From the NCBI GenBank assembly GCA_037176885.1, contig JAWWNJ010000215.1, positions 222,365-286,364 of the forward strand: a stretch of 64,000 nt of DNA, written 5' to 3'. How positions within the stretch are numbered: position 1 is the first letter of the stretch; each line of letters starts with the position of its first letter. This document shows positions 82-49,329 of the stretch, piece after piece. The notes under the pieces were generated by a model that saw nothing but the letters and a program-made list of their open reading frames with translations, was not told where the DNA came from and made no database searches. Made by a program: the position numbers and the translations under genes. The stretch comes from Favolaschia claudopus (Eukaryota > Basidiomycota > Agaricomycetes > Agaricales > Mycenaceae).

Positions 82-115
82 CCCGCCCTCCAGGCTGCTG
101 AATGCGTCGAGCAGC

Positions 116-4522: not shown

Positions 4523-4609
4523 CTCGCGCTGCTTGGAGCAAGTCTCCCTCTAGTCCAGCTGCTCCAGCATATACTCGAGCGGTTGCGATGCCTTCTAAAG
4601 GTAACGGAT

Positions 4610-9332: not shown

Positions 9333-9360
9333 TGTGGTAGACGAGGTTGATCAGACCCAG

Positions 9361-9713
9361 TGGAAACCGACAGAGAAGCGACGAGGAGATCAACACTTAA
9401 AAAGATGTAACAAGGAGCAGGCGGCTACGAGTCGTCGGCTGGTCTTGATACACGAGTCTTGAGGTAAGTCTTGAAGATTTGCCGGTTGGTCAGACGAGCG
9501 GGTAAGTGGTGTAAGTATCAGATTGACCAAGGTACTAACTACTACAAACAGACTTATATACTGACGGTTGTGATAGGAGCCACGGGTCAAAGTAACGACA
9601 GGTAGACATGATAAATGAGCGACGGGTATGTAAAGTAAAGACCGTGGTGTCGAATAGAGGACTCGGAGTGTAGAATAGAATAAAGAAAATAATATATCGA
9701 GCGCACCGTTACA
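9361..9713 (-). repeat. 5' LTR of element A
   Basis: 353 bp, TG...CA on the minus strand (starts TGTAACGG at 9713, ends GGTTTCCA at 9361). It is followed after one base by a possible primer binding site TGGGTCTGATC (about 9349-9359). The last 81 bases match the start of the window exactly. The left boundary rests on the TG/CA convention and the putative binding site, because the other LTR is truncated. Confidence 0.8.
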
Positions 9714-9938
9714 CATTCCTTCGAGGATTGGGAGAAGATTGTCGACAATATTCGACGAGATGATGTTGAGGCGGGTCGAGTCACTGCTCTCTTCTTGTAA
9801 AGCTTGAAGAGCACGGACATAGCCCTCATTGAGGACCTGCCGACCTGTATTTACATTGGTGGACCAGGGCTCTTCATTGGAAGGCAGAGGGGGAAGAGAC
9901 TCAGGCAGAGATGAAGAGTCCATCGCCGTTAGGAGCAA
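9714..9938 (-). pseudogene. 5' fragment of a host gene interrupted by element A
   Basis: An ORF from an ATG at or just inside 9938 (MDSSSLPESLPPLPSNEEPW...) runs into the LTR at 9713. The coding-like stretch of about 70 residues ends near DNLLPILEG. No family is recognised. It is divergent to the BTB gene, whose start is only about 45 bp away, so the two probably share a promoter. The rest of the gene should lie left of the window, beyond the 3' LTR. Confidence 0.45.
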
Positions 9939-30891: not shown

Positions 30892-32702
30892 TGAAACGGT
30901 GCGTGTAGGTGTAGGCGTGAAATATACCGAAATATAAAATCACAAAATCTAATCCAATACGACGTGTGTGTGTGTGTGTTCGGGGTGGCGGGAGCACGTA
31001 TCGTCCCTCAGAATACTTGTGCAAGCTTCAATCAATCAAGGTCGCTACGTTTGAGCGGGACGAACTACTAGATTTGTCTAGCGAGAACGTAGCGGGCAAA
31101 ACGATTCGCAGCGGGAGAAGCGAAGAGTCACTCTTTCTGAGACTTCGAAATGAGAAATTCTGAGTCTAGCGGGGAGGGTCTCCGTGCCAATAGAAAAGCG
31201 TCGCCCGGTAGTGGATCGTCAACCGGCAAGAAGCTTTCTGGATGACAACCGGCGGGCAGAAGGCGCGGCTCAGCGGGACGGGGTTCTTATACGACCGGCG
31301 CGGCTCTGGCGAGAAGCGGGGCTCTTATGTCGATGGCGCGGACACTAACAGTGACCCGGGCAGTTACACCACTACGCGGCGGCGAGCTCGAACGGGGGTC
31401 TTGGTTATACCGCGGAACGGCTGGCACACGGGGCGTCGACGGCGCGGAATCAAGCACGAACGGGGGTCTTGGTTATACCGCGGAACGGCAAGAAACGGGG
31501 CTTCGTATTTCAGGAGGGCTCGGGCTCAAAGGCTGGCGGGGCTCTCAAAGTTCTGGCGGCTCGGTATGCCACAAGTCTTTCCGTATCACTCGAATCTCTC
31601 TCAGATATCAAGTCTAGTCTCTTTCAAAGTTCAATTCAAATTCTAGAGTCCGCTACAAACTGCCCTTGTCTACGGGTAGGTAATTGACTGAGTAACAAAA
31701 AGTACACCGGGAGATTAAATACATGCAGCGGGAGCAGAAACAACCAAATAAAATCATGATGAGAGAGTGTCCAAGTTTGATGCCGCGCCCGCTGGGAACC
31801 AATGGTATATTCAGGATTGCGAGTCGTGAGTGAAAAGACTGCCTCCCGGAGAAAGTCCATGCGGGCGGGTGGGTATTGCGCCTTATTGCAGTGCAATGGC
31901 GTGCTGGTTGCCATGTCCCCGGGAGGGGACACGAAATTCCTCCTTCATAATATGGTCCTGCCGCTGGTCGAGTTGAAGTCGAAAAGGCTTCCCGCTGAGT
32001 AGTTAGTCAACGGCTCGATAGCGGTCAAGTTCGTCTTGTCTTCTATCTTCAGAACAGTCTAAGTTCCAGGGAAAATAGGGAGAGCCGAGTCGCGTTAGCG
32101 GCTCGCCACTCGCCGTTCGGGTTGTCCGCAATCAGCGGGAAATGCCCCCGGCAACTCGCCATGTCCTTCTCATCATTCTGACAGAGCCGTTGGCAGGATA
32201 GCCGCTGGCTCCGAGGTGCTCCGGCTGGCAGTCGGTTAAGTCCCAGCTGTCCGTAATCAGCCGGCGTGCTCGGTTAAAGCCTGCCGGTGATCCCGTCCGT
32301 CGGTAGAGTGGTGGCCGTCCTGAGTTCGAAGTTGAACTCAGTATGGTCCCCCGCTAGATCTTCTTCATGTTGGTCGGCGGGTGAGCGCCTAACCTCAGGG
32401 AGGTTGGTAGTTCCTCTTAGTCGCCTCCAGCACCTTGAGATAGTAGTTTCCCACTAAGTCTCTTGGCCCGGCAGTTTAGAAATAGTCAGCGGCAGAGTCT
32501 CGCACCCATGTTTAGGGAAACGTCGCTAAGCCGCTGCTACCCGTTGGTGTCCCACCAGCTTGTCGGCTATCCACAGCAATAAGATACTGCCCGCGAGGAC
32601 GGGCATATCTTCTAGTATCCTAGCCTCACTTCTCCCGCTGATAGGTCTCGAAAATCGATAAATTCCGGGCATTTCATGCCTAGCCGCTGAGCGGCCCTAT
32701 CA
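30892..32702 (-). repeat. 3' LTR of element B
   Basis: 1811 bp. It contains a (GT)n run near 30965 and a block of GGGG-TCTTATA subrepeats at about 31260-31520, including a 31-bp direct repeat (31389 and 31458). It has about 12 copies of AGCGGG/CCCGCT. Short ORFs inside it are not conserved coding regions. Confidence 0.95.
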
Positions 32703-32715
32703 TCTCCCCCTTTCT
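32703..32715 (-). other. Polypurine tract of element B
   Basis: The minus-strand sequence AGAAAGGGGGAGA is immediately followed by the 3' LTR start TGATAGGG. This is the plus-strand DNA primer site and proves the element's orientation. Confidence 0.85.
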
Positions 32716-33395
32716 AGATTTCAACTCTCCCGAGTTGACGACTTGAGATCGCCCGCTAGAGATCTTATCCATCTTCCCGGGGAAGGGGACTTCAAGACAA
32801 ACTTCTGTCTTGGAATAATTTTAGATAACGAACGGGCCGCCAGTGAGGCCCGGTCCCCGCTCGTTCCCTTTGGTATTTCATGAGAGAAAACTTTAACGAA
32901 GGACTCGTGGCGACCTATTTTTAGATCCCACTCTACCTCCGTTGACAGTTTCTGGACTCAACTTCCTCGCCGCGGCCGGCGATGCCGTCACTTTCATTAT
33001 GAGGCGTCATTCCTGCCTTTTTCGGAAGTACATCAAATTAGAGAAGCGCTCGAATCAAACTCTAACCCTGCGCTCTCTAAAGCCGTCCTATTCATCCGCA
33101 GTTTGGAATGTTTGGGATCAAAGAAGCCGCGGGGGACCCCCCGCTTCTTCATTCAAATGTTTTTCTCGGAAATTTTCTCGAGAATCCCATCAAACATTCA
33201 AACTCCGACTCCTCAGGGTATAAAGAGTCGAGAGGTTTCTGGGTGGATTCCCCACTGATTCCCCGATTGGGTACCCCCTTGCCCTCTCTTCCCCTCATTT
33301 AATCTTTCCGTCTTTCGCCCGCCAACCGGATTTCTGGCGCTTTGCACCGGGGAGCTCTTTCTTATTTGCTCATTCTTTGACGCTACACCCGCGGC
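32716..33395. promoter_or_regulatory. Leader/promoter region of the antisense gene block
   Basis: About 680 bp without a gene. A TATA-like GTATAAAG lies at about 33218, 170 bp before the first antisense ATG. Two or three CCCGCT words are present. Confidence 0.4.
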
Positions 33396-36300
33396 ATGCC
33401 TCCCAAACCCAGCGGCAGCTCTGCCTCTCGTCCAGAGTCTCGTTCTTCCCAGCGCGCCCCGGCAGCTTCTTCTCCCCCGCCGGTTCGTCGCAAACCGCTT
33501 TCTGGTCCTGGTCAGCCGCCCGCCGCATCGTCTTCGAAACCGGCCAAGCTTCCTCCACCGCCGCTGGAGCCTTCTAGTGTCGACTGGTTCGCCGTATGGC
33601 GCGACAAGCCGGAGGAATGGAAGACTCTGCAAGAACTGCTCGTCCCGTCGAAGCTCGCGAACTACTCCCAGGCTGGAATCGGCAAGATGCTGCGTGCCAT
33701 CCAAGAGCCGCTGGTGAGTTTCCATCGTTCAGCTATTCTTTCAGTTTTTAATTTCTTTCTAGAGAGAGCACCGGGCGATCTTGGGGGTTGCGCAAAAAGG
33801 CCTCGAGCCGCCCCCGATGGCCCTCGCCATCAGCGTTCACCTCCAGAAGGCTATCCAGACGTACGACCCGGACGAACACCTGCCCGACGTTCAGGCCCTC
33901 CGCTATCGCAAGACGGAGCTCAAGCAAAAGAAGGTGCGTCCCGCCAATATGGCCTCTTGGTCGCACCCCCGCTGAACGTTTATTCAGCTATACCTGCCCC
34001 CGGTCCCGTCCAAGACCATGGAAGCTTTTCCCATACCGCCGCCGCCGACGACTCAGTTCTTCGTCGACCGAAAGACCAAAGCCGCCCAGGTGAGTTTTGT
34101 TAACATTTTTCTCTCCCGGGCCACTCTGACTAGACGCTCTTTTAGTCTGCGTCTTTATCTGGCAAAGTTAGCGGCAAGGCCGCGACGGCCCCCAGCGACT
34201 CTGGAAAAGTCAGCGGCAAAGCCGCCACCGCGGCCGCTGAGTCGGGAAAAGTCAGCGGAAAGGCCTCCGCTAAGGTCAGTGGCCATTGCCGCCGACTCTT
34301 CCTTTCTGATTCTTTCTTATAGGGAGAGGAGACGCCCCGCCCCAAGAAGCTCCCGGATTTCAAAAAGACGGTAAGCCCTTCTTGCTAATTCATTCTCAAT
34401 TCTCCCGGCTGATTGATCTTATTTAGACCACCGCCTCCACCACCGACAAGCCAAAACCCGAGCGGGTCAAGGTAGTCACCAAGACCATCAAGGTCCCTGC
34501 CGACACCCCAGCCGCCAGCGGCAGTGGCACCAAGCGCAAGGCCTCGGGCGGCGCCGAGTCGTCTCCCTCAAAGAAGGTGAAGGAGGATAAAGCGGCCAAG
34601 AGCAAAGCGGCCAAGGCCCCGTCTCGTAGTCAGGTAGTTGTGGCCCGCTGCTGTCCCCAATGTAAGGCCGACATAGAATTAACAATAAACTTCTCGTAGT
34701 CCGTCATCAGTGTCCAAAGCTCCGGCGACGAGCGCGTTCCCGTCCCCGACTTCGAAATTCGTGAGTCGAAGCCGCCTCCCGCTTTAGAAATTCTGATGCT
34801 GAAATCTTTCTTAGTGATAGAGACCAAGCCGCCCGCCGCTCGGAAGAGCAAGAAGACCAAGCCCGCCACCGTCGACACGGTGCCTTCCCTCAAAGGGTTG
34901 GGCACCCGCGCCGCCCAAATCGCTGCCTTGGAGGGCGTTGGTATCAAGCCAGCCAAGCCGGTGAGTTGTTATCAGCGGGGGATTCATCCACTAACATTTT
35001 CGCTCCAGCTCCCCGAGCAGCCCATCAGGTCAATGGAGCCGACCAAGAAGAAGAACAAGCCCCGCCCCGAGGGCGAGTTCAAGGTGCCGAACAAGGATGT
35101 CGTGAACAAGCTGTTCACCAACTATCCTCAAGCCGCCCGCCGCCAGGACCTCCCGTACGACGCCGAGAGGGAGCAGTTCGCCTTGGCCGCCCCAAGCCTC
35201 ATCGGCAACCTCGAGCTGAACGTCGCCAATGTAAGGCGGTTTCTTTCTCCTTTTCTTATCTTTCTCAACTTTTTCTATCTAGAACGGCCCCCGCTGCTTG
35301 CGGTGTATTGCCTGCGGTAGCAAGTGCGAGTCTACCGGCGTCCCTGGCGAGTGCACGGCCTGCGCCAGCCGCAAGTCCACCAAGGACTGCACTTTCCTTC
35401 TCGACGGCGAAAAGCTCAGCTCCATGGGCTCCGGGCTGAAGCAGTGGGCCTCGATGACCCGGCCCGGTAAGCCAACCACTACTTTCCTGTTTAGGCCCGC
35501 TGACCGTTTCAACAGAGTGGTTCGACTTGAACGCCGATGTCAACGCCGCCGCCGCCACCTGCTTCGCTATCCAAGGAGCCTTCGAAAAGGCACGCTGGAA
35601 TTTGAACCAAAAATCCTTCAAGATGCTTCACTCGGTCTTGGTCACCCGCCGGGAGATCCAGCGGGAGGATTTCATCAAACGCTTCGCCGGCGAGACCCCC
35701 GAGGAGCAGGAGCAGAATATGGACCAGGTCTTGCGCATCGCCATGACCCAGGGGCTGACCGCCGCCTCGACGATCACGTCGAACCGCTGCTGGCAATACT
35801 ACCCTTCTGAGGTCATCGACGAAGTCCCCATCCCCGGCTTCACGGACGCCTACGCCTTCTACGAAGCCAAGGACCGCCAGGACCAGAACGTCCCGCTCGC
35901 CTTCTACCTCATCCCGGCCGAGCCTGAGCTCTCGATGCCGACACAGTGGGTCGAAGTGCAGGTGAGTTTTCTTCCTTTACCTTATTTTCTTTCTGGGCCG
36001 CTGACCCTCCTTATTCCCTAGCCGGAGGACTGCGTGGACCTCTTCCACGACTTGAAGGGAGAGGACGCCGCTGAAGAAATCCCCGACGGCTCGAAGGTCC
36101 GTCAACGCCTTTTCACAGACGGCAAAGGCCCGGTCAATCTCGACCCGAACGACGAGGACGGCAACACCTTGCCTTACAGCTGGGAGCACAAGAGCGTCCC
36201 CGGCTTCTTCAAGATGTTGTACCGCAAGGGCACGTTCTTCGAGATCCCCGACCCGCCGCCACCAGAGCCGAAGCGCAAAGGCAAGTCCAGCGGGAAGGTG

Positions 36301-36854
36301 AAATCATCTTCCGTGGTTCACGACGACGCCGACGACGAGTTCAAGCCCGACCCCACTTCCCAAGAGGAAGACATGGGCGAGGCCCCGGACGACCGTACGT
36401 CAAAAATTTTATTTCTTCTTTCTGTATTCATTGCTAAAGTCAATCTTCCCCGCTAGCCATGGACATCTCCCGCCCGCCGACTCCTGAAAAGCGCCCGAAG
36501 GGCAAACAGCGGGCAGTCGATCCGCCCATCCCTTCGTCTAGCGACGAAGAGGAAGGAGAGTCCGGCGAGGTGGGTGCACCCGCTTTCGACGACTTCTTAG
36601 CTGAGTCGTTTGCACAGGACGAGTCCAGCGGCGAGGAGTCCAGCGAGGCCGAGGTACGCGGAAGCGTCCAGGGTGAAGCCGACGAGGAGGACGACAGCGA
36701 TCTCGAGGAAGTCCAAATCCCCGGGACTGCCGATTTCGCAGCCAGCGGCGAGGAGGACCTTGGGCCAGAAGACGATGCAGTGGGCGAGGAAGATGTGGAT
36801 GTCCATCTTCCCGATCATCCTGCTCCTTCGGGCGACGACGCGGTCGAGAGCTGA
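33396..36854 (+). CDS. Antisense accessory protein A with Zn2Cys6 cluster
   Basis: Thirteen exons join in phase to about 930 aa. N-terminal domain of about 200 residues: VDWFAVWRDKPEEWKTLQEL, ANYSQAGIGKMLRAIQEP and HLQKAIQTYDPDEHLPDVQ. A Lys/Ala/Ser-rich middle follows with repeated SGKVSGKAAT units, typical of disordered nuclear proteins. Then a cysteine cluster C-x2-C-x6-C-x8-C-x2-C-x8-C (RCLRCIACGSKC ... GECTACASRKSTKDC), the spacing of fungal binuclear zinc clusters. Next comes a helical block (LNADVNAAAATCFAIQGAFE ... NLNQKSFKMLHSVLVTRREI) and an acidic tail. A splice pair lies also in the 3' UTR (36860-36912). It is antisense to the element's gag-pol. A DNA-binding regulator is the simplest guess; there is no experimental basis. 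Confidence 0.65.
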
Positions 36855-37661
36855 GCGGGTAAGCACACTACCCCTTTCTTGAGTCTCATCTCCCGCTGAC
36901 CGTCTTTTATAGCCTTTCCTCGTGGGTGGGTGGGCGGCAAGTAAGCGATTCGCCCAACCTCCCGCTGCTTTTGACTTTACGCTGACTTCTTTCTCAGAAA
37001 TAATTTCTGTATTCAATAATCGCGGGGGCCGAGCGGCCCCCAAATCATCAAAAGCTACGGGCACGGGTCCCATAACCCCGCTTCTTGCGAAGAGTCTGGC
37101 CTGGTAGAATTCTACCCGCCAGTACTCAACAAAATAAAAATATCTTAGATTCAAATCAAGTACCCCGCGTAGAGTAGCATCGTGTACCGGCCAAAGAGCC
37201 GATGAATTGTAAAAATAAAAAGCTTTTACGATGCACTCTTTCTTTGTGTGAAATCCTTAAGTCCTGTTTGAGTTCCAAAGTCAGAATCCCCGGCTAGAGC
37301 CTCTAAGTGATTTATAAGAGTCTGAAGCGAAAGATTCTGGCTGAGTGCTGCGCCCGTCGGCTGAGTACGACTTAGAGAGCGAGCTGAACGTTGAACTTCT
37401 CGAGTTTTCAACATGCCGAGCGGCAACGGTGCTTATCACCGGGGTCATCAGATACCGGGGATTGCCCGTGGTACTTCATCTGGCTTGTCAGCGGCTGTCC
37501 TCGGACTCCACCGGGTGACTAGTCCCTCATTTCTCCCGCTGGTCTCGTAAGAGTGATAACGTAGAGTAGGACTGGCCCGGCGGCCCGAGCTGCCCGCTAC
37601 CATACTTGTATAGTCGATAGGGGTAGATAGCCAATCAAACCACCTTCTTCTTTCAATCGTC

Positions 37662-38404
37662 ATGCCTCAGTCCATTGGTGAAGTCTTAATCGACTACCAT
37701 TTCTTCCCGGTGGTCAGTCAAGACTTTGTGCGCAAGATCTATACTGTGGTAGGCTGCCCCCAACACATTTCTGCGCCAAGTCCAACCAGCCGCTAGCCGA
37801 ATCTCGTTTGCACGCCTTGTAGTGACGCCGGCGAAGACTGTGAATTTCTTCACTGGGGCTCAAAGTGCACTCGGTGCCGGGAGGCGAAGGTCCCCAAATG
37901 CTTGTTCGCCGGGGTGGATTGGTTCAAATATACCTATCCGTCTTCAACCTTTCCGACACTTTTCATCTATCGCAGCGGTAAGTCCTGCCGCTCCTCGAAT
38001 TCTCATCTTCCTTATTCTATTCAGGCGGCACTTTGTACGACCTTGCATTCCTCGAACTCTGGTACCACTTGCGCCTCGGCGGCTTAAGCCCCGATATGTT
38101 TATAGGCTCGGTGGACGGTGAGCCTGCTGACTTCTTGCGTCGGCGGGAGGAATTTGCTGGCGACCTTCGTGACTGGGACATTGCTCACGACCTAAACCAC
38201 GCCGCCCACTCCAGCCGGCGGCTGTATTTCTACAACATCCTGTCTCGAGTTTTACGTGAGTGGCGTACCCAGGATCGCTCGATCCATGCCCAGTGCGACG
38301 TCGACGCAGCTATCTTGCTCCATGATATCCGGCGACGGGACTCTAATGTTCCGACCGTCGTGCCCTTGGCCCAAGGCACGCGCCGCCAGACCTTCGAGCG
38401 GTAA
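37662..38404 (+). CDS. Antisense accessory protein B with Zn2Cys6 cluster
   Basis: Exons 37662-37748, 37797-37977 and 38025-38404 give 215 aa. Exon 1 encodes a short leader (MPQSIGEVLIDYHFFP). Exon 2 (181 nt) holds the cluster C-x2-C-x6-C-x8-C-x2-C-x7-C (CTPCSDAGEDCEFLHW, SKCTRCREAKVPKC). Exon 3 encodes a helical domain (LYDLAFLELWYHLRLGG, LRDWDIAHDLNHAAHSSRR, VDAAILLHDIRRRDS). It has the same exon pattern as the two following genes, so they are paralogues. It lies 800 bp after gene A, in a tandem array of the same strand. Confidence 0.62.
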
Positions 38405-38577
38405 CCCAGGCTAGTAGCTTTTCCCCGTTAGGGTCAAATAAATCTCTTTGCCCGGTCGCAAGCCGTTATCGTGACGTCTGATTCCTTCTGAGCTTTTGGT
38501 CCGGCAGCCGGTGGTACTCACCCGTCGGCTATAGGTTTTTACTTATAGCGGCCGGTGCTCAGTGAGTTCTTCGAGCG

Positions 38578-39249
38578 ATGCCCGCCTTTTCTTTGGCAGC
38601 GACTTTTTACTCAGAACGCTTTAGGAGCTTCACCGGTCCCTCAGAGTACCAGCTCGTACTTCAAGCTCAGTTTGTGGGTCTTTCGTTCTTTCTCAGTGTT
38701 CTCCCGCTGACGGGTGCCTCTTCTTAGCCGGAGTACGAATGCCAGTGCTGCCTCAAGAACTACCGCCATTGCATCTGGATTCAGTGGGGTGAAGCCTGCC
38801 TCAGCTGCATGTTCATAGGCCGCGCCGCCTTGTGCTGCTACACTAAGAAGTCCGTCTGGCAGGCCGAGAACAGCCGTCGTCGCGACACTCTCCTAGCCTC
38901 TCGGCCGGGTAAGTCTGCTTTCTATCTTTATACCTCCCAGCGGGGGCCTTAGTGAAGTTTAGCTCCCTCCGCCGGACGGATCGCTCAGTTTGACTGGTAC
39001 GCCCGGGCTGCCGGTGCCCGACTCGACGAGAAGAGGTACATTGACGTGCGTACTTGCACCATCCTCGCCGCCAGGTCCATGCTCGGCACCCTTGGGTTTG
39101 GCCAGCTACGCTTCTTGTACGGACTGTGGTTTGACGCGAAGGGGGCGGGCGTACGAAAGGAAATTGTAGATCTCCTCCGGGATAGGTTAGACGCTGTAGC
39201 CCTCCAGTCCGGCGCAAGGCTCCCGCCCGTCATGTTCATCGGGCCGTAA
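38578..39249 (+). CDS. Antisense accessory protein C with Zn2Cys6-like cluster
   Basis: Exons 38578-38673, 38728-38908 (181 nt, same length and phase as gene B) and 38963-39249 give 187 aa. The leader is MPAFSLAATFYSERF. The cluster is C-x2-C-x6-C-x8-C-x2-C-x8-C with an extra Cys at each end (YECQCCLKNYRHC, GEACLSCMFIGRAALCC). The C-terminal helices FDWYARAAGARLDEKRYID and LRFLYGLWFDAKGAG end in PPVMFIGP. The exon 1 donor GTGGGT was chosen because it preserves phase and parallels gene B. Confidence 0.58.
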
Positions 39250-39532
39250 GCGTAGTAGGAAATATATTCCCACTGTCAAACGAACTTGCATCTTTAAAAC
39301 TCTGTTTCAAGCTGCCCGATTAGGAAGGCTTCCTAGAAACCAAAGCTTCCTCGTGTTTTTGCCCAGCGGGAGCTCAGCACCTCGTTGGATATTCCACATG
39401 TATTGCGGATCTTCCGGGAGCATCGGGTGCAATGAGTCCCGCTGTCGATCTCTCTGTTTTTGGGTCTCCCGCCAGGTCTCAGAGAGATATTTAAGCTGGC
39501 GGGAAGGTCCCATTTGCTTCAGTCGTCTACTC

Positions 39533-40161
39533 ATGTCTTTGCTGGAACATCCACTCTTCCCGAATGACCCCGTCGGCCCGCTCAGGGAGTACTATGTACG
39601 TTCCTGAACATTTTGCCTCGGGTAATTCCTCATCATTCGGCAGCCTGGCCGGGTATGCTCTGCGTGCCTCAACGCCCGTTCTCATTGCGAGTTTACTGAG
39701 TGGGGAGCGCCGTGCACCCGCTGTTACTTGCTGAAGCACAACTGCTCGTACACCCAGACCGCTGAGCTGGCCGATGAAATTGCTGCCCGCCGGCACCGTT
39801 TCAAAGAGGGTCCCGATCGTAAGTGACGACTTCTTTCTTATCTGTTGCGCCACAACTGATTCCCCGCTCGCTTCTAGCGGCTACGAAGGAACAGCTAGCT
39901 GCTTGGGACGTCCTTCATGAGGGGACCCTGGCGCAGTTCCCATTCTGGCAACAATACCATTCTGTAATCGTCGGGCGGAACGTCGCAGAGGCAGCCCAAC
40001 GGCTGTCTTTTTACTTCGAGGCCCGCTTGGTTTTCCATCTTCTTCAGGAGGCCAAAACGGCTAACCTCCCGGCTGCATATGTTGCTGTTATCCGCGAGCG
40101 GTTAGACGTTCTCGCCAATAATCTTTTCCTGGATCTTCCGGCTAGGATGCGGGCAGTGTAG
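39533..40161 (+). CDS. Antisense accessory protein D with Zn2Cys6 cluster
   Basis: Exons 39533-39595, 39644-39818 and 39878-40161 give 173 aa. After the leader MSLLEHPLFPNDPVGPLREY, exon 2 carries a textbook spacing C-x2-C-x6-C-x8-C-x2-C-x6-C (CSACLNARSHCEFTEW, APCTRCYLLKHNC). Exon 3 is helical (FWQQYHSVIVGRNVAEAAQR, RLVFHLLQEAK). The shared W-G-x-x-C-x-x-C core (TEWGAPCTRC, compare LHWGSKCTRC in B and IQWGEACLSC in C) shows common ancestry. A TATA-like GATATTTAAG lies about 45 bp upstream. Confidence 0.62.
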
Positions 40162-40580
40162 ATACAGGCACATGTACTTTCGGATAGTTCGTTCCGATAA
40201 CACACGCTCCCGCCCCATGTGAGGCCTTGGAAACATTTATTTCTTGGTAAAGATGTGCCCGCTGCCCTCAAATGACGTGCTAGGTGACCCACCTCTCCCC
40301 CTTTCAGAAATCTCAACTGTCCCCAGTTGATCGATCAGAGGAAATTCAGGTTCCCCGGCAGCAAATTTTCGTGCCACGGAACGATCGGGTGCGTTTGAAA
40401 TAATTTTCTGCGCCACCGGCGGGTGCATCTACCATAAATGGTAATCCAAGTTCGGCCGTTGACCAAATTTCGTCCAAATTATCCTTACGGCGTTAATTAC
40501 GGCCGCTCGAGTATAAGAAGCAGCGGGCGGACAGGTATACCCCCAGCCTCGTCTACTGTCTTTACTCTGCTTCCTCCAAA

Positions 40581-41835
40581 ATGTCTCAAAACGATTACAA
40601 CACCGTCAAAGCCGATTTCCTCAAGGCTATGGACGTTGCCGCCAACCTCGTCAAGTATTCGCCGCCCGAGTCTCGCAAAAACCAGCTCAAGGACGTCGCC
40701 GAGATCCTTGTAAGAGCCGCCGGCTACATTGACCAGTCTCGTTTTGTTAACATTATTCTTTCGTTCGTAGGCGCGCCTTCCCCCGCTCATGCCTTTCATT
40801 TTGGAAGACAAGAGCGCGGTTCTTCGTGAGGCAATCTTCACCTCGCGTGAATATTACCACTCCTTGTACGACCCGGATGGTAAACGGGACGTGACCTTCC
40901 CCGCTGGGTACGATGCCCTGCGGCGGATCACCAAGGCCATTCACGAAGATCGTTCCAAGAAGGCGATCCCGCCCGTCTCCACCGTTTCGTCTTCCAAGGG
41001 GACCCGGGTCGGTTTCACTGACATTTTTATTGCCGTGCTCACCATTGACTCACAACCATCCCCCGCTAGAAGAGTACTCGCGGGCGGTCTCAGGGTGAAC
41101 CCGAGTCTGAGGACGAGGACGAAGGCACCGTTCGTGCTCCATCGCCCGCTCTCACCACCATCGGTGCTGACGAGGTTCGTTCTTTCATTTAACAGCTGGC
41201 CTGTGTAGAGCTGACGATTGACACTCCTATCATCGCCGTTGGGTGTTTGTTCACCCAGATGCTCGTTGACGATGAGCATGTCCCCGCTCCCAAGGCTCCC
41301 CCTACCGGTCCCAAGGCTAAGTCAGCCATGGCGGGCAAGAAGGGTGCGCGCGCTGTAAGTTGCACGTTATTTCTGCTTTAGCTTCTGTCATTCATTTCAA
41401 TCTTTCAGCATAGCCCGGCCCCCGCTAAGAAGGGCAAAGGCAACAAGCGCGCTCGCATCGACAACGTCGCGTTCCACGAGGACTCCTTCCTCACCAACGG
41501 TGAGTTTCCCGTCCATTGTCAGTGGTTTCCCGCTGAATGTTATTACAGCAACGGCTGAGTTTTACGCTTCGGCACCCGCTTCAGGTGCCGTTGTCGACGA
41601 GGCCGCTAGCGTCGTTGAGATGGGTACCGAGTTCATGAGCAACCACCTTGCCTTGCGCAAGCGGATGTATTTCATCATGGTCGAGCTGGCGGTCATTCAT
41701 GAGAACCTTCGTAGCTCTCTGGCCAGGCGCGAGCAGCTCCTCGACGAAGGAGAGAAGATCTCGGCTCGCCTTCGCGACTTCCCCGAGTCCTCCTCTGCCG
41801 GCGCAACCTGTTCGCAGCGCACTGGCGGGAGATGA
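40581..41835 (+). CDS. Antisense accessory protein E, no zinc cluster seen
   Basis: Six exons in phase encode about 330 aa: MSQNDYNTVKADFLKAMDVA ..., ARLPPLMPFILEDKSAVLRE ... FTSREYYHSLYDPDGK, an acidic segment EPESEDEDEGTV, LACVELTIDTPIIAVGCLF, a Lys-rich stretch AKKGKGNKRARID, and a C-terminal helical coiled-coil-like block (EFMSNHLALRKRMYFIMVEL ... RREQLLDEGEK). The last block loosely resembles the helical part after the zinc cluster of protein A. The gene ends 68 bp from the pol stop, tail to tail. A TATA-like GAGTATAAGAAG lies about 70 bp upstream. The function is unknown. Confidence 0.55.
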
Positions 41836-41903
41836 AGGAAATTCAATTACTTAAAGACTTCGAATCTCGTTTCAGATTGTAACGTAGATATCGTAGCAGT
41901 AAT

Positions 41904-44900
41904 TCATTTCCGCGCAGCGGCTTTCGTGGCAGAACGAGTCTTTCGTTTGAAAGGCAGCGGCTCATCCGTGTCAGGTTCCTCTTCCTCTTCTTCTTCCTCG
42001 GGCAAGGCCTCCTGCAGAGCCGGCTCTTCGTCAGCCGTCCCACTGGGGGTTAACCTTACATTCCCGAATTGGAAGTCATCTCCAGAATAACCGTCTTCCT
42101 CCTGGACCATCTCTTCTAGCGTCTCGGCCGAGAGGTCAATTAAGTCGTGAATGTCAGCGGGCAGCTTGATAGAGCGCCGCTGCTCGAAGGGGACTACCCT
42201 GAACTGAGCAATCTTTGATTGAAAGACAGAGCCGTCCATCTCCGCTACGATATAACTTCCACCTTTCGTACGCCGGATGATGATTACTGGTCCCAGGTAT
42301 CTGGCGGCCATCTTCGTATTCAGCGACTTCTCAACGGTCGTATTCCTGATGAGCACCAAGTCGCCCGGCTCGAAATGGTAATCTTCGATAGTATGTTTAT
42401 GTGCTATCTCATACCGGCGCAAATTCGCTCGTTTCTCGTCGGTGACCCGCTCCCTCATCTGCTCGACGTGAGTGGCGTGCTTAGCCAGAGCCTGGGCTCG
42501 ATAGCCGATTAACTCAGCGGTCGTTAGAGTCCTGCCGGGCAGATGCACTAGCCAAGTCGCTTCTTCTATATCCAGCGGGAGGATTGGATGTGCGCCTGTT
42601 ACCATAAAGTAGGGTGAACAACCCGTTCCTCGTCGAATAGTTACCCGGTCAGCCCACAACATCTGCGGGAAGAACCAGTACCACTTGCTGGGATTCCCGC
42701 CAGTAGCTTTCCATAAGGATTGCCTCATCGAGAAGTGCCCATTTTCGACTTTCCCGTTGGCTTGAGAATTATACGGCGAAACTCTAATATTTCTTATGCC
42801 GTATTTAGACTCAAGGTAGGCTACGGCCGCTAGGAAGGCCGGCGCATTATCTGTCACCAGTTCCTCCGGGCAACCCCACCTACAAATCACATCTTCCAGT
42901 AAGAACAAGGCCAACGTTCTGGCATTCTCGTTCTTTATCGGCCGCGCTTCTATGTAGCTGCTGAGAGAGCAGCGGGCGTCGACAATTTTATTGAAGCCGT
43001 TGGAAGGAGTACCAACGACCATCACGTCGACGTGTACCACCTGGAAGAGCGAAGGGGTATGGGTGACAACGGGCGGGATCTTCAATAAAGTCCTTTGCCT
43101 CAATTGACACAATTCGCAAGTCTTAATGTACCAAGTGACATCCCGCTCCATCTCAGGCCACCAGAAACGCATTTCTATCAAGGATTTGGTAGCAAAGACG
43201 CCGCGATGAGCTAGGCTATCATGAGCCGCTCGCATCATATACATTCGGTGTTCTTTGTCTACCACCAACTGATGTGCGCTCCCCGTCGTGGATTTGTGAT
43301 AGAGTTTTCCATCTGCATCCTCGAAGAAGCCGGTGGCGAATCGCAAGAAAGCTTTGTATTCCTTGTCGTTCATGCCATCCGGGCGAGCCAGGGTGTTTCG
43401 CCGCCATTCCTTCATGAGGAGCAGCCGCTCGTCCGCTAGCTTCGCCGCTACCGATCGTTGGTCTTCAGAATACGGTTCCCGCTTCGTCGGGTCGTACTTC
43501 AATTCGAGGTCAGGGATCAGCGGCTCGCCTACTGGCTTGTCGTCACCCTTCGACTGAGAGAAGACTTCGAAAACATATTCCCTACTGAGGCGGGTATAAG
43601 CCCAGGCCTGTTCGGCGTCGTTTTCGAAGTCAGCGGCTGACCGAGCCTCGTCTCCTGCCAATTCAGCTACCATATATCCACCTCGGGTGTCAATATCGTG
43701 CTTGAAATCCTCGAAATTCTTGAGAGGCGGCCAGGCACTACTTTCAGGATGAAGACCCGGCGGTTCGTTATTATCGAACTCGTCTTCTGGATGATCATAC
43801 TCTGGATCCCCCGGCTGGATACGCCGGCGGGAGAGTCCATCTGGCCCGAAAGTCTTGCCCGGTACATGCTTCAGAGTGAAATGAAACATTAAGATCTCCT
43901 CGATCCAGCGGTTGATCGTAGCGTTGGGTCCCATTCCCGGGTGATCCAACATGCCTTTGAGGTACTGAGCGTCGGTCTCGACGACCAGCTTGCGGCAGCC
44001 CAACAGCCAATATTGCATGTGATCTAGCGCCCTCTTCAAGCCAAACAATTCCCGCTTGGGCTGAGAATACCTCGACTCCCGGTCATTCAAAGGTATGGAG
44101 CTGAAGCGGGCATAGTACCGCTTATTTAGGTCCAAAGGATCCCGCTGGTACACATGCACCCCAACTCCAAGATACGACGTATCAACTGCCAGTACCACTT
44201 CTGTGTCCCATTCATATCTTATAGGTCTAAGCGCGGGACATTCTCGCAAAGCCTTCTTCAAAACTTTCATGCAGGCGTCTTGGGGCGGGCCCCACTCGAA
44301 TATGACTTCTTTCCGGGTAAGCTTCTGAATCGGTTCAGCCTTGACCGTGTAGTCTTGGATGAACATCCTCATAACGCCCACAGTTCCCAGAAAGGCTTTC
44401 ACATCGTGGAAATCCTTCAGCGGGCCCCAACGTTCAATGACGCCGATTCTATCTTCATCCGGGCGCATGCCCTCGTATGAGCAGACATGGCCGACCACCT
44501 TAAAGGTTCCCCGGCAAATCTGCAACTTCTTCCCGCTTACAGTCGCCCCAGAATAGGCTAGCCGGGTAAGTACCCGGTTGCAGTCTACCAAGTGTAACCA
44601 CACGAAGACCCTTATCAGCGGGTTCTCTGGGATGGTCTCGTACGTCCCGTCAGGCTTCTCATATCGAGTGAAGCCGCCGGCGACAGGCACGTCATCTATA
44701 TACGGCCGGGTAACCGCAGGAATTTCATCTCGCAGGATGTAGGTTACGTCTTCGTGGAAGATCGGCACCGAGTTGGTCCAACCCTGCGGCAATCTTACCA
44801 ATCGAAGCGCCCCAAACGGAGTTTGGAAGGTCGTGTAATCTCGAGATTCCGGGTCAATCAGCCGGTGGTTGTACCCAGAATAAAGATCAAACGTGGACCC

Positions 44901-45926
44901 ACAAGCCCTTCCTGCGAAATGTTCGGCTAGATCCGCGGCGCCGGGAGGCACCCCAGAGTGCGCAATGGTTACCGCGTTCAGCGGCTCCAACGAATGCACT
45001 AACCGAATTGACTTCTTATCACTCTTCAGAACTCCAAAGTACTTCGTGCGGTACGAGCCGTTGGATGGTTCGTAGATATTGGCGTCGATACTCGCCCTAA
45101 GCACCTTGCAGACTTCCTCCAGCTGCCCCGGCGGGATGGGAATATTTCTTTCCACCCAGACCTTATGGTCTGCCTTCACCGGGAACTTGACTGGCGGGAA
45201 GAAATCCGTCCTGAAAGTTCCTCGTTCACTGTCATCCCATGCTACCGTATTTTCGTGTATAGATAACATGTGATGAACCAGCTTCATCTCTTCATCATTC
45301 AGGAACCCATCATTATGCAGTTCGTCCACTACCGCTTTCCTTTCCGCTGTGTACCTCCCTACGGGAACGAACTCTGGCGGGTGAGGGTCTAGCGGGACGA
45401 GATTCTGCAGCGGATCCCCAATGATATTTCTCTCTATCCTGAACTCGGGAGGGAGCGGCTCGAGGACCGGCTTTACTTTCAGCGCTACCGGCTTATATTT
45501 CTTCGAGAACACCTCCTTCACCTCGACTTCAGGCGGGTGATCCTCGGGGACGATTTCCTCCATCAACACCACTTTCGTTTCGTTGTGTTCGAACCCGGGC
45601 ACCACCCAGTCGGCGTAGTCACAGCACTGACAGCGCTCCCCCGCTGAATGCCGAGACCGCTCCTGTTTGAGCGACTCAACATCGGCACCGGCTGTCATGA
45701 ACACAGCGGCTGGGTCCTTCAGCTTCTCTCTGACTTTATCCGTTATATTAGCTACGATGGCTACATAGGATTCGCCGACGTTCTTTCCTTCTGTCAGCTG
45801 CTCATTATATTCCTGAAATAGCTGAGCAGCGGGTTCGTCATCAACTTCTGGCATGGCAGCCGCTAGGTAGGCCATTTTCGTCTCGGCCATCGAAAACCCT
45901 CTTCTCCAGATTTCATCAAAGCGCAA
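41904..45926 (-). CDS. Element B pol: RT, RNase H, integrase
   Basis: A 1340-residue open frame. RT shows FDLYSGYNHRLIDPESRDY and the catalytic YIDD in RPYIDDVPVAGG. RNase H starts at VVLAVDTSYLGVGVHVYQ. The junction HVPGKTFGPDGLSRR is typical of this Agaricomycete gypsy clade. Integrase has the zinc finger (AHDSLAHRG ... CELCQLRQ) and catalytic acids in VHVDVMVVG, LVTDNAPAF and SPYNSQANGKVENGHF. A GPVIIIRRTKGGSY-type C-terminal domain and an acidic/basic tail follow. No chromodomain is evident. The frame is fully open over 4 kb, so the element looks young and potentially active. Confidence 0.92.
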   Translation of the reverse strand: MRFDEIWRRGFSMAETKMAYLAAAMPEVDDEPAAQLFQEYNEQLTEGKNVGESYVAIVANITDKVREKLKDPAAVFMTAGADVESLKQERSRHSAGERCQCCDYADWVVPGFEHNETKVVLMEEIVPEDHPPEVEVKEVFSKKYKPVALKVKPVLEPLPPEFRIERNIIGDPLQNLVPLDPHPPEFVPVGRYTAERKAVVDELHNDGFLNDEEMKLVHHMLSIHENTVAWDDSERGTFRTDFFPPVKFPVKADHKVWVERNIPIPPGQLEEVCKVLRASIDANIYEPSNGSYRTKYFGVLKSDKKSIRLVHSLEPLNAVTIAHSGVPPGAADLAEHFAGRACGSTFDLYSGYNHRLIDPESRDYTTFQTPFGALRLVRLPQGWTNSVPIFHEDVTYILRDEIPAVTRPYIDDVPVAGGFTRYEKPDGTYETIPENPLIRVFVWLHLVDCNRVLTRLAYSGATVSGKKLQICRGTFKVVGHVCSYEGMRPDEDRIGVIERWGPLKDFHDVKAFLGTVGVMRMFIQDYTVKAEPIQKLTRKEVIFEWGPPQDACMKVLKKALRECPALRPIRYEWDTEVVLAVDTSYLGVGVHVYQRDPLDLNKRYYARFSSIPLNDRESRYSQPKRELFGLKRALDHMQYWLLGCRKLVVETDAQYLKGMLDHPGMGPNATINRWIEEILMFHFTLKHVPGKTFGPDGLSRRRIQPGDPEYDHPEDEFDNNEPPGLHPESSAWPPLKNFEDFKHDIDTRGGYMVAELAGDEARSAADFENDAEQAWAYTRLSREYVFEVFSQSKGDDKPVGEPLIPDLELKYDPTKREPYSEDQRSVAAKLADERLLLMKEWRRNTLARPDGMNDKEYKAFLRFATGFFEDADGKLYHKSTTGSAHQLVVDKEHRMYMMRAAHDSLAHRGVFATKSLIEMRFWWPEMERDVTWYIKTCELCQLRQRTLLKIPPVVTHTPSLFQVVHVDVMVVGTPSNGFNKIVDARCSLSSYIEARPIKNENARTLALFLLEDVICRWGCPEELVTDNAPAFLAAVAYLESKYGIRNIRVSPYNSQANGKVENGHFSMRQSLWKATGGNPSKWYWFFPQMLWADRVTIRRGTGCSPYFMVTGAHPILPLDIEEATWLVHLPGRTLTTAELIGYRAQALAKHATHVEQMRERVTDEKRANLRRYEIAHKHTIEDYHFEPGDLVLIRNTTVEKSLNTKMAARYLGPVIIIRRTKGGSYIVAEMDGSVFQSKIAQFRVVPFEQRRSIKLPADIHDLIDLSAETLEEMVQEEDGYSGDDFQFGNVRLTPSGTADEEPALQEALPEEEEEEEEPDTDEPLPFKRKTRSATKAAARK

Positions 45927-45987
45927 ATTCTAGGAACATTATTCTCGTCCAGTTCTATCTGAACCGCTAACTCTCCTTGATGGTTAA

Positions 45988-47151
45988 TCAACTCCTCGAA
46001 TTCTGAAAATTTTGTTCCTCTTCGCCGCTCGCCTGCGCAGCCGGTGGTGCATCGTTTTGTACGCGCCGCACCTGCCGCCGCTGACCTCTGGGGAAGGTAG
46101 GGACGACCACCCGCTTCGAAGTGGAGGGGTCGGTCAGAGTCAGGAACTGGTTCCCGTCAGAAGTATTTTTGATACCGCTGGCGGTCAGAATTTCGAAGGG
46201 CCGCCCCAGCAGCACTTTGTATGCCGGGTTCCGTATAACATGCACTTGTAGGTACACAGTCATATCGCCGAACCTGAAGGGGACGTTCCTTGCCAGACCG
46301 ACTGACTTTTCGGTTTGCCCGTTGGCGCTCATCATGTGGATACAGTTATCAGGGTCCCAGCTGACTCCTAGCTCGGTGGCTACCGACAGGGCCCTGGACA
46401 CGATCTGTGATCCACCATCCAGAATGCATTCGACTTCGGCGGCTCCATGAATGAGCGGGAAGACCACTCTCAGGGCCGCTGATTCTCCAGCAGAAGCTTC
46501 GGAGATCGCGACGAAGATTTCTCTCACCGGCTCACCATCGGCTACCGACTGCCAATATTGCACGGCCGGGTCGACAGTGATGAGAGCTCCCGCTGGCATG
46601 AGTCCATCGGCCACAGTTGAGACCTGGACTAACGCTTCGTAAGGGAGGTCCTCCAAGGCGACGCTGGAGGACTCGTCATCTTCGTCGGCTTCTTTCTCTG
46701 CGTGGCTAATCAATTGCTCGAGGGTGACTCGAACAGCGGGCGAGACTCTCTTCTTCGAGAGCAACGCCTTAGCCTGACGCAGCAACTTCGGGCTGAGAGC
46801 GAACAGCCTCCCCAGCGGGAGTGCTATTTCCAGGTTTCCGAAGATCTCCTTTATCAAGGATTCGACCTCCTCATCTTCCTGGTCCTCTACGGGCGCCTTC
46901 AACTCGTAGTTCTTTTCGTTGGCCGCTGGCGGCGCATTTCCCGCCGGCCGAACTCTAGGTTCGTTGGGCCTTTTTGCTGGCTTGACCGGGGGAACGTTCC
47001 TATACGGAAGTTCCGGCGGCTGAGTGCCATTTTGTTCTTCTGTCTCCTCCCGCTCCTTTTCCTTGGTCTCCACGATCGCCGGCTGTGCTTCGACAGCGGG
47101 CTTTCGTATCGTCCTCGGTTTATAGGGCAACTTCGGCATCACAACTTCCAT
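45988..47151 (-). CDS. Element B aspartic protease protein
   Basis: 387 residues in a frame separate from gag and pol. The N-terminus is Lys/Glu/Pro-rich. The retropepsin core is VECILDGGSQIVSRALS, LGVSWDPDNCIHMMSANGQ and the C-terminal motif VLLGRPF. The catalytic triplet reads D-G-G where retropepsins usually have D-S/T-G; related mushroom gypsy elements also vary here (D-E-G, D-N-G). It would process Gag and Pol in particles. It starts 44 bp after the gag stop, and its own stop is 62 bp before the pol frame. Translation probably needs recoding or re-initiation. Confidence 0.8.
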   Translation of the reverse strand: MEVVMPKLPYKPRTIRKPAVEAQPAIVETKEKEREETEEQNGTQPPELPYRNVPPVKPAKRPNEPRVRPAGNAPPAANEKNYELKAPVEDQEDEEVESLIKEIFGNLEIALPLGRLFALSPKLLRQAKALLSKKRVSPAVRVTLEQLISHAEKEADEDDESSSVALEDLPYEALVQVSTVADGLMPAGALITVDPAVQYWQSVADGEPVREIFVAISEASAGESAALRVVFPLIHGAAEVECILDGGSQIVSRALSVATELGVSWDPDNCIHMMSANGQTEKSVGLARNVPFRFGDMTVYLQVHVIRNPAYKVLLGRPFEILTASGIKNTSDGNQFLTLTDPSTSKRVVVPTFPRGQRRQVRRVQNDAPPAAQASGEEEQNFQNSRS

Positions 47152-47194
47152 TTTCTTTCCTGCGGGCGGGCGTGCTTGTCGGTTCTCCGGGGGC

Positions 47195-48946
47195 TTATCC
47201 GCAGTGGGTTTCCCCTTGGCCCCCTTCCTCGAACTCTCTAAAAATGCTCACCTTCGACGCTGTTCCCCGTTCGGGAAGGACCAGCCCGTTGGAAGAGCGA
47301 GAGTTCGCTGAGACAGCCGCCAGCAGAATCGCAACAGCGTTGGCGTCGAATTGCGGCGGGGGAGACTGGCTTTGATGAGCCACAAGGGGTGGTTGAACAC
47401 CCCCCGATCCATGCGACTGGAGTTGCGTCACTTGCCGCTGGAGGTTTACTTGCTCAGCTCGCAAGGAAACCAGTTCTTCTTCTCTCGGGTCGTAGTAGAA
47501 TTCCTCGTTCTGATTGAAAGCGGCTTGCGCGGCTTCCAGCTCTTGCTCATCCATGTCAAGAACGGAGAGCTGAGCGAAGACAGACTGGTAGTTTTGCGCA
47601 GCGGCCGTGGGTTGGGCGGCCGGGCGGTACTCCTCTACCTGCTGCTTCTTGGACTTGTGCCCGTCTTTCGGGATAGGTATCCCATCGGGGAAACAGTCTC
47701 TGAACGCTACGACCTTCATCTTTCCACTCCCTATGTGGGCTTGCCGAATGAGACACTTATCTCTAAAGTGCCCAAACTTGTCGCAATAAAGACACCCCTG
47801 ATCCGCCAGGTTCCCTTTGAATTGCACGGTTGGCATTCGCGGGAAAGACTGGGAGTCAGCGGCGCCTGGGACTCTGCCCGGTAGGGACTTATAGAAGGAC
47901 TCCAACTCGGCCATCCTCTTCTTGGTCGCGGCGTCGATCTCTTTTAATTGGGAGGTCTGGTTATCCAGCCGCTCCATCATAGTGACGACCGACACCTTAA
48001 TCGTCTCAAGAAGGGACTTGTTAGGGTCCTCCTCTTCTTTCTTTACCGTCACGTTTGGGTGAGGTAGTATGGATCGCCCGCTCGACGCCTTTCCAGACCC
48101 GCTGGCGTTCTTGGACTTGCTCGAGTATCCCCGGTCAGAGGCGCCAAAGAACTCAGAGTTAGCGGTCGAGCGTTTTGCGATCCTTTTAGCTTCGGTCATG
48201 ACCTCGGCCAGCGTCCATGTGCGGACCTCTGGCTCGTCAGCATCATCCCCGGCAGCGGGAGGTTTCCGCTCGAGGTTCTCCAGAATCCGTTCCTTGAACT
48301 CAGGACTCAACTTGGAGAAGAACATCGGGAGAGCCTCCCGGTGCGAAATTAATTTCGAATCGAGAAGCTTGTTCGCCTCGACGTTCATGACGCGCATTAG
48401 GCGCATGAGTTCGTCTTCATCGTCCCGGTCGATCCCCTCTTCCGTGAACTTACGAAGCTGCCGGTGCAATTTCTGCACAGAGCCCTTCTTTTGGTCGACT
48501 ACGGACGGGTAATTTTCCAGGATTTCTTTCTTAAAGTCGTCGAACTTCTTAGAATACGAGGCGAATTGCCGCCACTCCTCGGCGGTTGCCTGAGCAGTAT
48601 AGCGGCAGACAAACTCGTTCTTCTTATCATCCGGCGTCTCATCTAATTCCATCATACGCTCCACATGGTCCAGGAAACGAACGAGTTCCTCCGGCTCTTC
48701 CTCTTTGAAGAGCGGGGCGTTCCTGTCCCATGGTTCCGGCGCGCGCTTCTTTCCTCGAACGACAGGGTTGTTGTTGCCGTCGTCAGCCATCGGATTGTTT
48801 GAAGGGGTTGGTGAAGTGTTGAGTAGTGGTGAAGAGACAGACGAAAGAGTCGTTGACGACTGGGTAGCTGCACCGTCGGGCGTAACAGGTCTTGTGCCGG
48901 GCGGTTGAGTTGAGGTTTGTTGTTCCAGCGGAGCAGAGGGGCTCAA
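47195..48946 (-). CDS. Element B Gag
   Basis: 583 residues. A disordered Ser/Thr/Pro N-terminus is followed by the gag core (FLDHVERMMELDETPDDKKN, YTAQATAEEWRQFASY, LISHREALPMFFSKLSPEF). A single CCHC knuckle CLYCDKFGHFRDKC binds RNA. A Gln-rich coiled-coil segment ends the protein. The leader between the LTR and the start is 384 bp, and it carries the primer binding site at 49310-49327. Confidence 0.88.
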   Translation of the reverse strand: MSPSAPLEQQTSTQPPGTRPVTPDGAATQSSTTLSSVSSPLLNTSPTPSNNPMADDGNNNPVVRGKKRAPEPWDRNAPLFKEEEPEELVRFLDHVERMMELDETPDDKKNEFVCRYTAQATAEEWRQFASYSKKFDDFKKEILENYPSVVDQKKGSVQKLHRQLRKFTEEGIDRDDEDELMRLMRVMNVEANKLLDSKLISHREALPMFFSKLSPEFKERILENLERKPPAAGDDADEPEVRTWTLAEVMTEAKRIAKRSTANSEFFGASDRGYSSKSKNASGSGKASSGRSILPHPNVTVKKEEEDPNKSLLETIKVSVVTMMERLDNQTSQLKEIDAATKKRMAELESFYKSLPGRVPGAADSQSFPRMPTVQFKGNLADQGCLYCDKFGHFRDKCLIRQAHIGSGKMKVVAFRDCFPDGIPIPKDGHKSKKQQVEEYRPAAQPTAAAQNYQSVFAQLSVLDMDEQELEAAQAAFNQNEEFYYDPREEELVSLRAEQVNLQRQVTQLQSHGSGGVQPPLVAHQSQSPPPQFDANAVAILLAAVSANSRSSNGLVLPERGTASKVSIFREFEEGGQGETHCG

Positions 48947-49309
48947 CGACTGGGTTTGGCGGGTACGATAAGCGTGAGCTTGGGTTCGTCCGCGCAGAGA
49001 ATAGAGTTCCGGGCAAGAGCAACAGGCGGGCGGGAAGGATCGTCAGTCTCGAGTTCGAGAGCAGCGGCAGCGGCACGTAGGCTAGTGTTGGTTGACCGAG
49101 GTTTTGGTGGTGGTGCTCTAGCGGATCGTCCTTCTGAAGCCACGTCTCTTCCGAAACTAAATGGCAAAATCTTCTATAGCGGGCCTGGAGCTATTGGCTC
49201 AACGGGCGGGTGTATATTCTATTCTCGAGTCAACCGGCGGATGGTTCGTGCTAGTTTAGAGCAGCGTCCACAAGTGATTTCTTTCGACTTGACACAAATA
49301 ATCTGTCAC

Positions 49310-49327
49310 CCCTCGCGGTGGGCTCCA
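49310..49327 (-). other. Primer binding site of element B
   Basis: The minus-strand sequence TGGAGCCCACCGCGAGGG begins two bases after the 5' LTR end and starts with TGG, complementary to a tRNA CCA end. The cognate tRNA was not identified. Confidence 0.55.
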
Positions 49328-49329
49328 GA

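Follow-up and report, generated by a model that had tools for sequence, protein, structure and literature searches.

Genes that run antisense to gag-pol have been described in several long terminal repeat (LTR) retrotransposons, and they are the closest known counterparts of the locus reported here, a 9.2-kb block of five intron-bearing genes inside a Ty3/gypsy element (element B) of the basidiomycete Favolaschia claudopus. The window, i.e. the whole stretch of DNA that was analysed, comprises 64 kb of contig JAWWNJ010000215.1 (positions 222,365 to 286,364), and all coordinates refer to it; the citations refer to parts of the respective papers. Antisense open reading frames (ORFs; aORF-3R) are known from the plant Ty3/gypsy elements Grande (gene23), RIRE2, Retand (TRP28) and PvRetro13, of which Grande encodes a nuclear protein with its own promoter and Retand a protein with predicted DNA binding (PMC7264820; PMC11963269). 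For Retand, 104 antisense ORFs of more than 600 bp in 63 clusters were reported in a main text that does not mention introns (PMC11963269). Antisense placement between the 3' LTR and pol is described for brtn, a gene of the Botrytis cinerea element Boty (PMC7264820; Zhao 2011 by its title, via PMC8365987), and human T-lymphotropic virus (HTLV) possesses an antisense accessory gene for a nuclear regulator (PMC11963269). The parts of these papers drawn on here give no settled function for antisense genes of LTR elements (PMC7264820; PMC11963269; PMC8365987).

Recognition of a transposon by its own product has been described for VANC21 of the Arabidopsis element VANDAL21, which binds a 9-base motif dense in the noncoding DNA of that element and causes methylation to be lost from it (PMC5735166). 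TET/JBP dioxygenases encoded by DNA transposons of fungi were reported in 2025 (PMC12730594) and may, by analogy, be another hint of anti-silencing genes on fungal elements. The targets of Zn2Cys6 proteins usually contain CGG pairs, and two sites of Pho7 hold one CGG (PMC5559640). Our literature search, judged by titles and the openings of abstracts, brought up neither an antisense array of several intron-rich genes nor Zn2Cys6-like genes in any LTR element, a weak negative result given that most subscription papers lay outside the search. An earlier note on this DNA knew of no described element with such an array; within this search, nothing similar to the intron-rich five-gene array with Zn2Cys6-like clusters was seen, but antisense accessory genes as such were already known.

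The antisense block and its maintenance

Element B itself is read on the minus strand. The five plus-strand, intron-bearing genes that the earlier note placed between its pol and its polypurine tract were confirmed (G1 to G5); they contain 23 GT-AG introns in total. In the gene models the introns were placed by hand and verified by translation, and the products are open:

33396-36854, plus strand: G1, 934 aa, 12 introns, with a lysine-rich middle and an acidic C-terminal region
35283-35466, plus strand: Zn2Cys6-like exon of G1
37662-38404, plus strand: G2, 215 aa, 2 introns
37797-37977, plus strand: Zn2Cys6-like exon of G2
38578-39249, plus strand: G3, 187 aa, 2 introns
38728-38908, plus strand: Zn2Cys6-like exon of G3
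39533-40161, plus strand: G4, 173 aa, 2 introns
39644-39818, plus strand: Zn2Cys6-like exon of G4
40581-41835, plus strand: G5, 5 introns, 314 aa in the window versus 310 aa for the family form, lacking a zinc cluster

The introns are 47-84 nt long, and retention of 13 of the 23 would introduce an in-frame stop. Antisense introns are not spliced from genomic RNA and thus survive reverse transcription; as the earlier note had pointed out, the introns of G1-G5 outlast copying because the genes are antisense to the genomic RNA. G5 has basic stretches, and its last exon in the window lacks 142 bp (41801-41835 region) of the family form, which stops at codon 310. This shortfall of approximately 142 bp is common to the window copy and one further copy (L012), the segment being present in the 20 other compared copies.

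Copies of element B were sought in 264.6 Mb of the genome, with the best 40 hits scored of 143 to 270 first-look candidates per search, and 25 block-side copies were taken from the best 40 hits of one within-block probe. Aligned end to end, 21 of these 25 contain all five genes, broken frames counted. The remaining copies comprise one that runs off the contig end (L015), one that breaks off at window-equivalent position 36321 (L033) and two with internal deletions of window-equivalent 34012-41507 (L020, whose junction shows an overlap of 9 bp) and 34375-45510 (L030). A clean empty site without the block was not found among the 25 copies, and a secondary insertion into one copy is ruled out by this result together with the presence of the block in 21 of them. 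To check independence from block-based sampling, the best 40 pol hits were compared with the best 40 G3 hits. A G3 hit at the correct distance accompanied 21 of the pol hits; the other 19 were without partner, maybe because the comparison covers the best 40 G3 hits only. Block sequence was present at all seven of these 19 loci that were spot-checked, six of them holding G3 and the seventh (L036) G5 and upstream sequence, shifted by about 1.8 kb. The junction of L020 was found in L020 only (best 40 of 213 candidates), and therefore spread of a block-less form was not seen; likewise, amplified deletion derivatives were not found, the junctions of L020 and L030 each occurring once among the scored hits. 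These observations support the conclusion that the block is a component of the element family, in antisense orientation and with its introns retained through copying.

Two further observations were made on these copies. L011 and L012 are two element copies on one contig (C8) in opposite orientation, with the probes approximately 6 kb apart. The deletion junction of L030 (raw 7961-8212) contains a 250-bp sequence that recurs with 93-97% identity in 40 of the 59 matches listed and is perhaps a small repeat resembling miniature inverted-repeat transposable elements.

The introns of G1-G5 recur in the compared copies. Of 21 copies set against the window, 11 have five open frames and no damaged splice site (open frames of G1 to G5 in 13, 17, 18, 18 and 15 of the 21 copies, respectively; in two of the 18 open-frame copies of G4 a splice acceptor is altered). 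The ratio of nonsynonymous to synonymous substitution rates (dN/dS) was determined for the window versus L029 and L032, which are among the most divergent copies, and amounted to 0.14-0.15 for G1, 0.13-0.14 for G2, 0.17-0.18 for G3, 0.10-0.14 for G4 and 0.12-0.15 for G5, at dS values of at most 0.41. Against the C2 copy (L032) alone the range was 0.12-0.17, beside 0.04-0.15 for the gag-pol side, namely 0.15 for gag, 0.11 for protease and 0.04 for pol (window versus L034, which represents these genes of the C2 copy; one stop each in its gag and protease, read in the window's frame, was excluded from the count). In the comparison of the window with four copies (L022, L029, L031 and L032; first six intron bases tallied separately), the GT and AG dinucleotides changed in 6 of 368 cells versus 662 of 4288 at other intron positions, and third codon positions changed at a rate of 0.159 versus 0.052 and 0.034 at the other two (window versus L032). 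The low dN/dS values, the conserved splice sites and the prevalence of third-position changes therefore indicate that both the proteins and the introns, in their capacity as introns, were maintained during copying. Purifying selection acts on each of the five genes at a strength similar to that seen for gag, and G1-G5 are almost certainly functional genes of the element. The earlier note had named a clean empty site in relatives and a lack of purifying selection as evidence that would contradict its view; the sampled copies yielded neither, dN/dS being well under 1 in every gene.

Divergence is not uniform along the element. For the window versus the C2 copy, dS is 0.38 for G1, 0.27 for G2, 0.10-0.13 for G3-G5 and 0.25-0.34 for gag-pol; the noncoding DNA around G3-G5 has likewise diverged less than the stretch separating G1 from G2 (window 33396-41835 versus L029, L031, L032 and L034). 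This uneven synonymous and noncoding divergence suggests that subfamilies of element B may have recombined.

Element B represents a family of Ty3/gypsy LTR retrotransposons of autonomous type, and its remaining parts in the window are as follows:

30892-51146, minus strand: element B, Ty3/gypsy LTR retrotransposon by paired LTRs, target-site duplication and order of the pol domains
30892-32702, minus strand: 3' LTR with TG...CA ends
32703-32714, minus strand: polypurine tract adjoining the 3' LTR, sense GAAAGGGGGAGA
40294-40305, minus strand: further polypurine tract of 12 nt, identical to the first and located between G4 and G5, unchanged across the window and four copies
41904-45929, minus strand: pol, the largest ORF, with reverse transcriptase (sub-threshold), RNase H and integrase H2C2
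45988-47247, minus strand: ORF with a sub-threshold aspartyl-protease match to Pfam
47195-49042, minus strand: gag-position ORF, named from its position, no Pfam match
49330-51146, minus strand: 5' LTR with TG...CA ends

The two LTRs of 1.8 kb each differ by four substitutions in 1810 aligned positions, with eight gap columns, and ACGT stands directly outside both as a target-site duplication. In pol, Pfam detected RT_RNaseH (45.3 bits) followed by Integrase_H2C2 (64.5 bits), and RVT_1 ahead of RNase H scored 28.0 bits, just below the cut-off of 29.6. Among the 120 pol matches listed, relatives with 70-74% identity occur, the best showing 74% over 99%, and a Mycena chlorophos protein is also found (54% identity). 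In the putative primer-site region, TGG stands 2 nt inward of the 5' LTR, with the purine tract beside the 3' LTR, and a tRNA scan of the 64-kb window found none. The two polypurine tracts are 7.6 kb apart and similar in their neighbouring sequence, so that the inner one is possibly a central polypurine tract of this 20-kb element.

Zinc clusters of G1-G4

The general Zn2Cys6 spacing is C-x2-C-x6-C-x5-12-C-x2-C-x6-8-C. The translations of G1, G2, G3 and G4 read C-x2-C-x6-C-x8-C-x2-C-x(8,7,8,6)-C, in that order, and all four thus conform to it; the six cysteines are invariant across the aligned rows. The four clusters announced by the earlier note are therefore present. The zinc exon of G4, modelled with AlphaFold, reached a mean pLDDT of 72.6, and a Foldseek comparison with the PDB listed 21 matches, none of them significant alone. 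All 21 are Zn2Cys6 DNA-binding domains, by their titles or, for part of them, by what we take the structures to be.

The zinc exon is entered in phase 0 and left in phase 1 in all four genes, and a W-G pair occupies the same loop position in G2, G3 and G4. On account of these common features we read G1-G4 as paralogues, which most likely arose by duplication inside the element from one zinc-cluster gene, although the identities of the clusters to that of G2 are low (26% in G1, 19% in G3 and 35% in G4). G1-G4 would be Zn2Cys6-like proteins of presumably nuclear location. In the protein database no match with an E-value of 1 or below was obtained among 139 candidates for G4, the database possibly being poor in well-spliced fungal genes, or among 3148 candidates for residues 440-760 of G1. 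Therefore, relatives in other genomes are not known for G4 and G1, the two proteins covered by the search.

The word CAGCGGG and its possible readings

The most over-represented 7-mer in the noncoding DNA of element B is CAGCGGG, with 21 occurrences versus 1.2 expected from a trinucleotide model. The following features of the window concern its distribution:

30892-49329, both strands: 41 copies of CAGCGGG in 18.4 kb of element B, one LTR counted, 21 on the plus and 20 on the minus strand
1-9726: element A, gypsy-type, with pol at 116-4549 and a zf-CCHC ORF at 6096-9350, a control without CAGCGGG enrichment

Per kb, the word occurs 3.9 times in the LTR, 5.5 times in introns, 2.9 times in intergenic DNA, 1.1 times in the exons of G1-G5 and 2.0 times in gag-pol, the 287-base leader containing none. 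The intronic copies overlap a branch-point-like CTGA, which may inflate the intron count. Outside element B the word occurs at 0.10 per kb (element A) and 0.19-0.37 per kb (flanks), the background consisting of 43.7 kb of the window and 8.6 kb of tails (2.3 kb at L030 and 6.3 kb at L033, with 0 and 1 copies, respectively). CAGCGGG is the best-scoring 7-mer in the LTR and antisense part (z 15.3) and, independently, in gag-pol (z 9.9). When codons were shuffled synonymously with protein and codon usage fixed (n=1000), gag-pol contained 14 copies versus 2.27 +- 1.45, a number that none of the 1000 shuffles reached; element A contained 1 versus 1.42 expected. The excess in the coding sequences of G1-G5 was weaker (6 versus 2.56, reached by 34 of 1000 shuffles). 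Codon bias or composition as the cause of the excess is ruled out by the trinucleotide model, dinucleotide shuffles and these synonymous-codon shuffles. Local repeats are likewise ruled out, given that CAGCGG is distributed evenly along element B with 5-12 copies per tenth. CAGCGGG has thus clearly accumulated in element B, where it is mostly unpaired, dispersed in both orientations and present also in coding DNA. Its symmetry between the strands speaks against recognition in RNA.

In the region from 9727 to 30891, the top word is CAGAAAG, which occurs mostly within a local inverted repeat at 12.6-13.3 kb (12611-13323, 348-nt arms of 92% identity, 17-nt spacer).

We see an even chance that the element recognizes itself, i.e. 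that zinc proteins encoded on its antisense strand bind CAGCGGG and regulate their own element. G1-G5 would be transcribed from their own promoters opposite gag-pol and spliced, one or more of G1-G4 would bind the CGG-bearing word, and the density of this word in LTRs, introns, intergenic and coding DNA would mark element copies for regulation. The marked copies might be kept transcribable, or autoregulated, similarly to the action of VANC on VANDAL. Such self-recognition would explain both the selected proteins and a word that exceeds codon use and composition. A more far-reaching version is put forward tentatively: a Zn2Cys6-like family would have been amplified and the entire element sequence rewritten to hold its target word, enabling the proteins to find and control or un-silence only their own copies, which would be an independently evolved anti-silencing system of a fungal retrotransposon. 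Between copies, AGCGGG was retained more often than words of the same composition (60 of 74 versus 253 of 396), and noncoding CAGCGGG was retained in 51 of 69 cases versus 296 of 497 (from three non-independent pairs in both directions).

Several results weigh against self-recognition. CAGCGGG as a whole was retained in 28 of 37 cases (p 0.11, rank 27 of 228), some words being kept equally or better, and its retention in single copy pairs was unremarkable, so that present constraint on it is only suggested. In the comparison with the Pfam profile Zn_clus (PF00172), G4 scored 17.5 bits versus a cut-off of 21 and no match was obtained for G1, G2 and G3; we therefore use the name Zn2Cys6-like and do not assign PF00172. 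Basic residues are expected in the first cysteine loop of Zn2Cys6 proteins; this loop holds basic residues or H in G3 and G4 and one K in G1, but it is acidic and devoid of basic residues in G2. Moreover, the VANDAL motif forms tandem arrays of one orientation in mainly noncoding DNA, in contrast to the dispersed and strand-symmetric CAGCGGG, which extends into gag-pol. Of the proposal in the earlier note that the element encodes DNA-binding regulators, the family-wide antisense block with retained introns and purifying selection has stood, while the hidden Markov model comparison it had recommended fell short for Zn_clus and the loop of G2 is acidic.

Alternatively, the zinc proteins could be ordinary autoregulators or regulators of host genes that act at few promoters, with CAGCGGG being due to Gag, integrase or a host factor. 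TATA-like boxes upstream of G1, G3, G4 and G5 (none was found upstream of G2), the frequency of the word in gag-pol, a region in which it is unlikely to serve promoters, and its only suggestive conservation are in line with this explanation. We nevertheless consider it unlikely, if worth serious attention, as CAGCGGG holds the CGG typical of Zn2Cys6 sites and is strand-symmetric, and inverted repeats around the TATA-like boxes, discarded as a signal, lie at shuffle levels except for one near G4 (39442-39532 region, 9-bp arms, reached by 1 of 300 shuffles). Improbable is a role as post-transcriptional or nuclear-import accessory proteins comparable to retroviral Rev or Vpr, in which the zinc fold would serve protein or RNA contacts. 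The acidic first loop of G2, the lysine-rich middle and acidic tail of G1 and the basic stretches of G5 would suit such other nuclear roles, but all listed structure neighbours are DNA-binding domains and the dense CGG word is about equally frequent on both strands.

The remaining explanations deny the proteins a function for the element. If the block were a passenger, that is a captured host gene cluster copied without use, derivatives such as L020 and L030, which keep other element parts without most of the block, and the broken frames in some copies would be readily understood. This is very improbable in view of the purifying selection near that of gag, the 11 of 21 copies with five intact frames and splice sites, and the single occurrence of the L020 junction in the scored hits. 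Retroelement antisense transcripts can act as RNA (PMC7264820), and the block might thus operate through antisense RNA, by interference with gag-pol RNA or as small RNA, with the proteins being incidental; protein-level selection (dN/dS of 0.10-0.18, third-position changes, kept splice sites and frames) largely refutes this view, to which we give hardly any credence.

Comparison with known systems

Regardless of which reading holds, element B illustrates that antisense placement allows a retroelement to harbour genes with introns. It represents a case of several antisense genes with strong purifying selection, a predicted fold resembling DNA-binding domains and a candidate target word, so that function becomes testable by binding assays. 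As in the elements with aORF-3R, the block is conserved similarly to gag-pol and present in most copies examined; element B differs from them by its five genes, 23 introns, four Zn2Cys6-like clusters and fungal host, a relation of sequence having been judged by Pfam only. Boty shares with it the fungal host and the position of antisense genes between pol and the 3' LTR, a likeness drawn from its description, but has one additional antisense gene in the sources cited, instead of five. The antisense genes of HTLV are HBZ, which is spliced, and APH-2, and provide a single factor; element B resembles this virus in having antisense accessory genes of a retroelement, and differs by carrying five of them.

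With Gal4, Ppr1, Hap1 and Pho7, G1-G4 share the cysteine spacing and probably, judging from the model of G4, the fold of the zinc exon. In contrast to fungal Zn2Cys6 factors, they remain below the Pfam cut-off, have less basic loops and no other recognised domain, and are borne by a retrotransposon. VANDAL elements are DNA transposons; like VANDAL with VANC, element B pairs accessory proteins with a short word that is dense in its own DNA and rare elsewhere in the window. If the proteins do bind CAGCGGG, they would be a new source of sequence-specific DNA-binding proteins, and element B would provide a fungal retrotransposon counterpart to the self-recognition of VANC.

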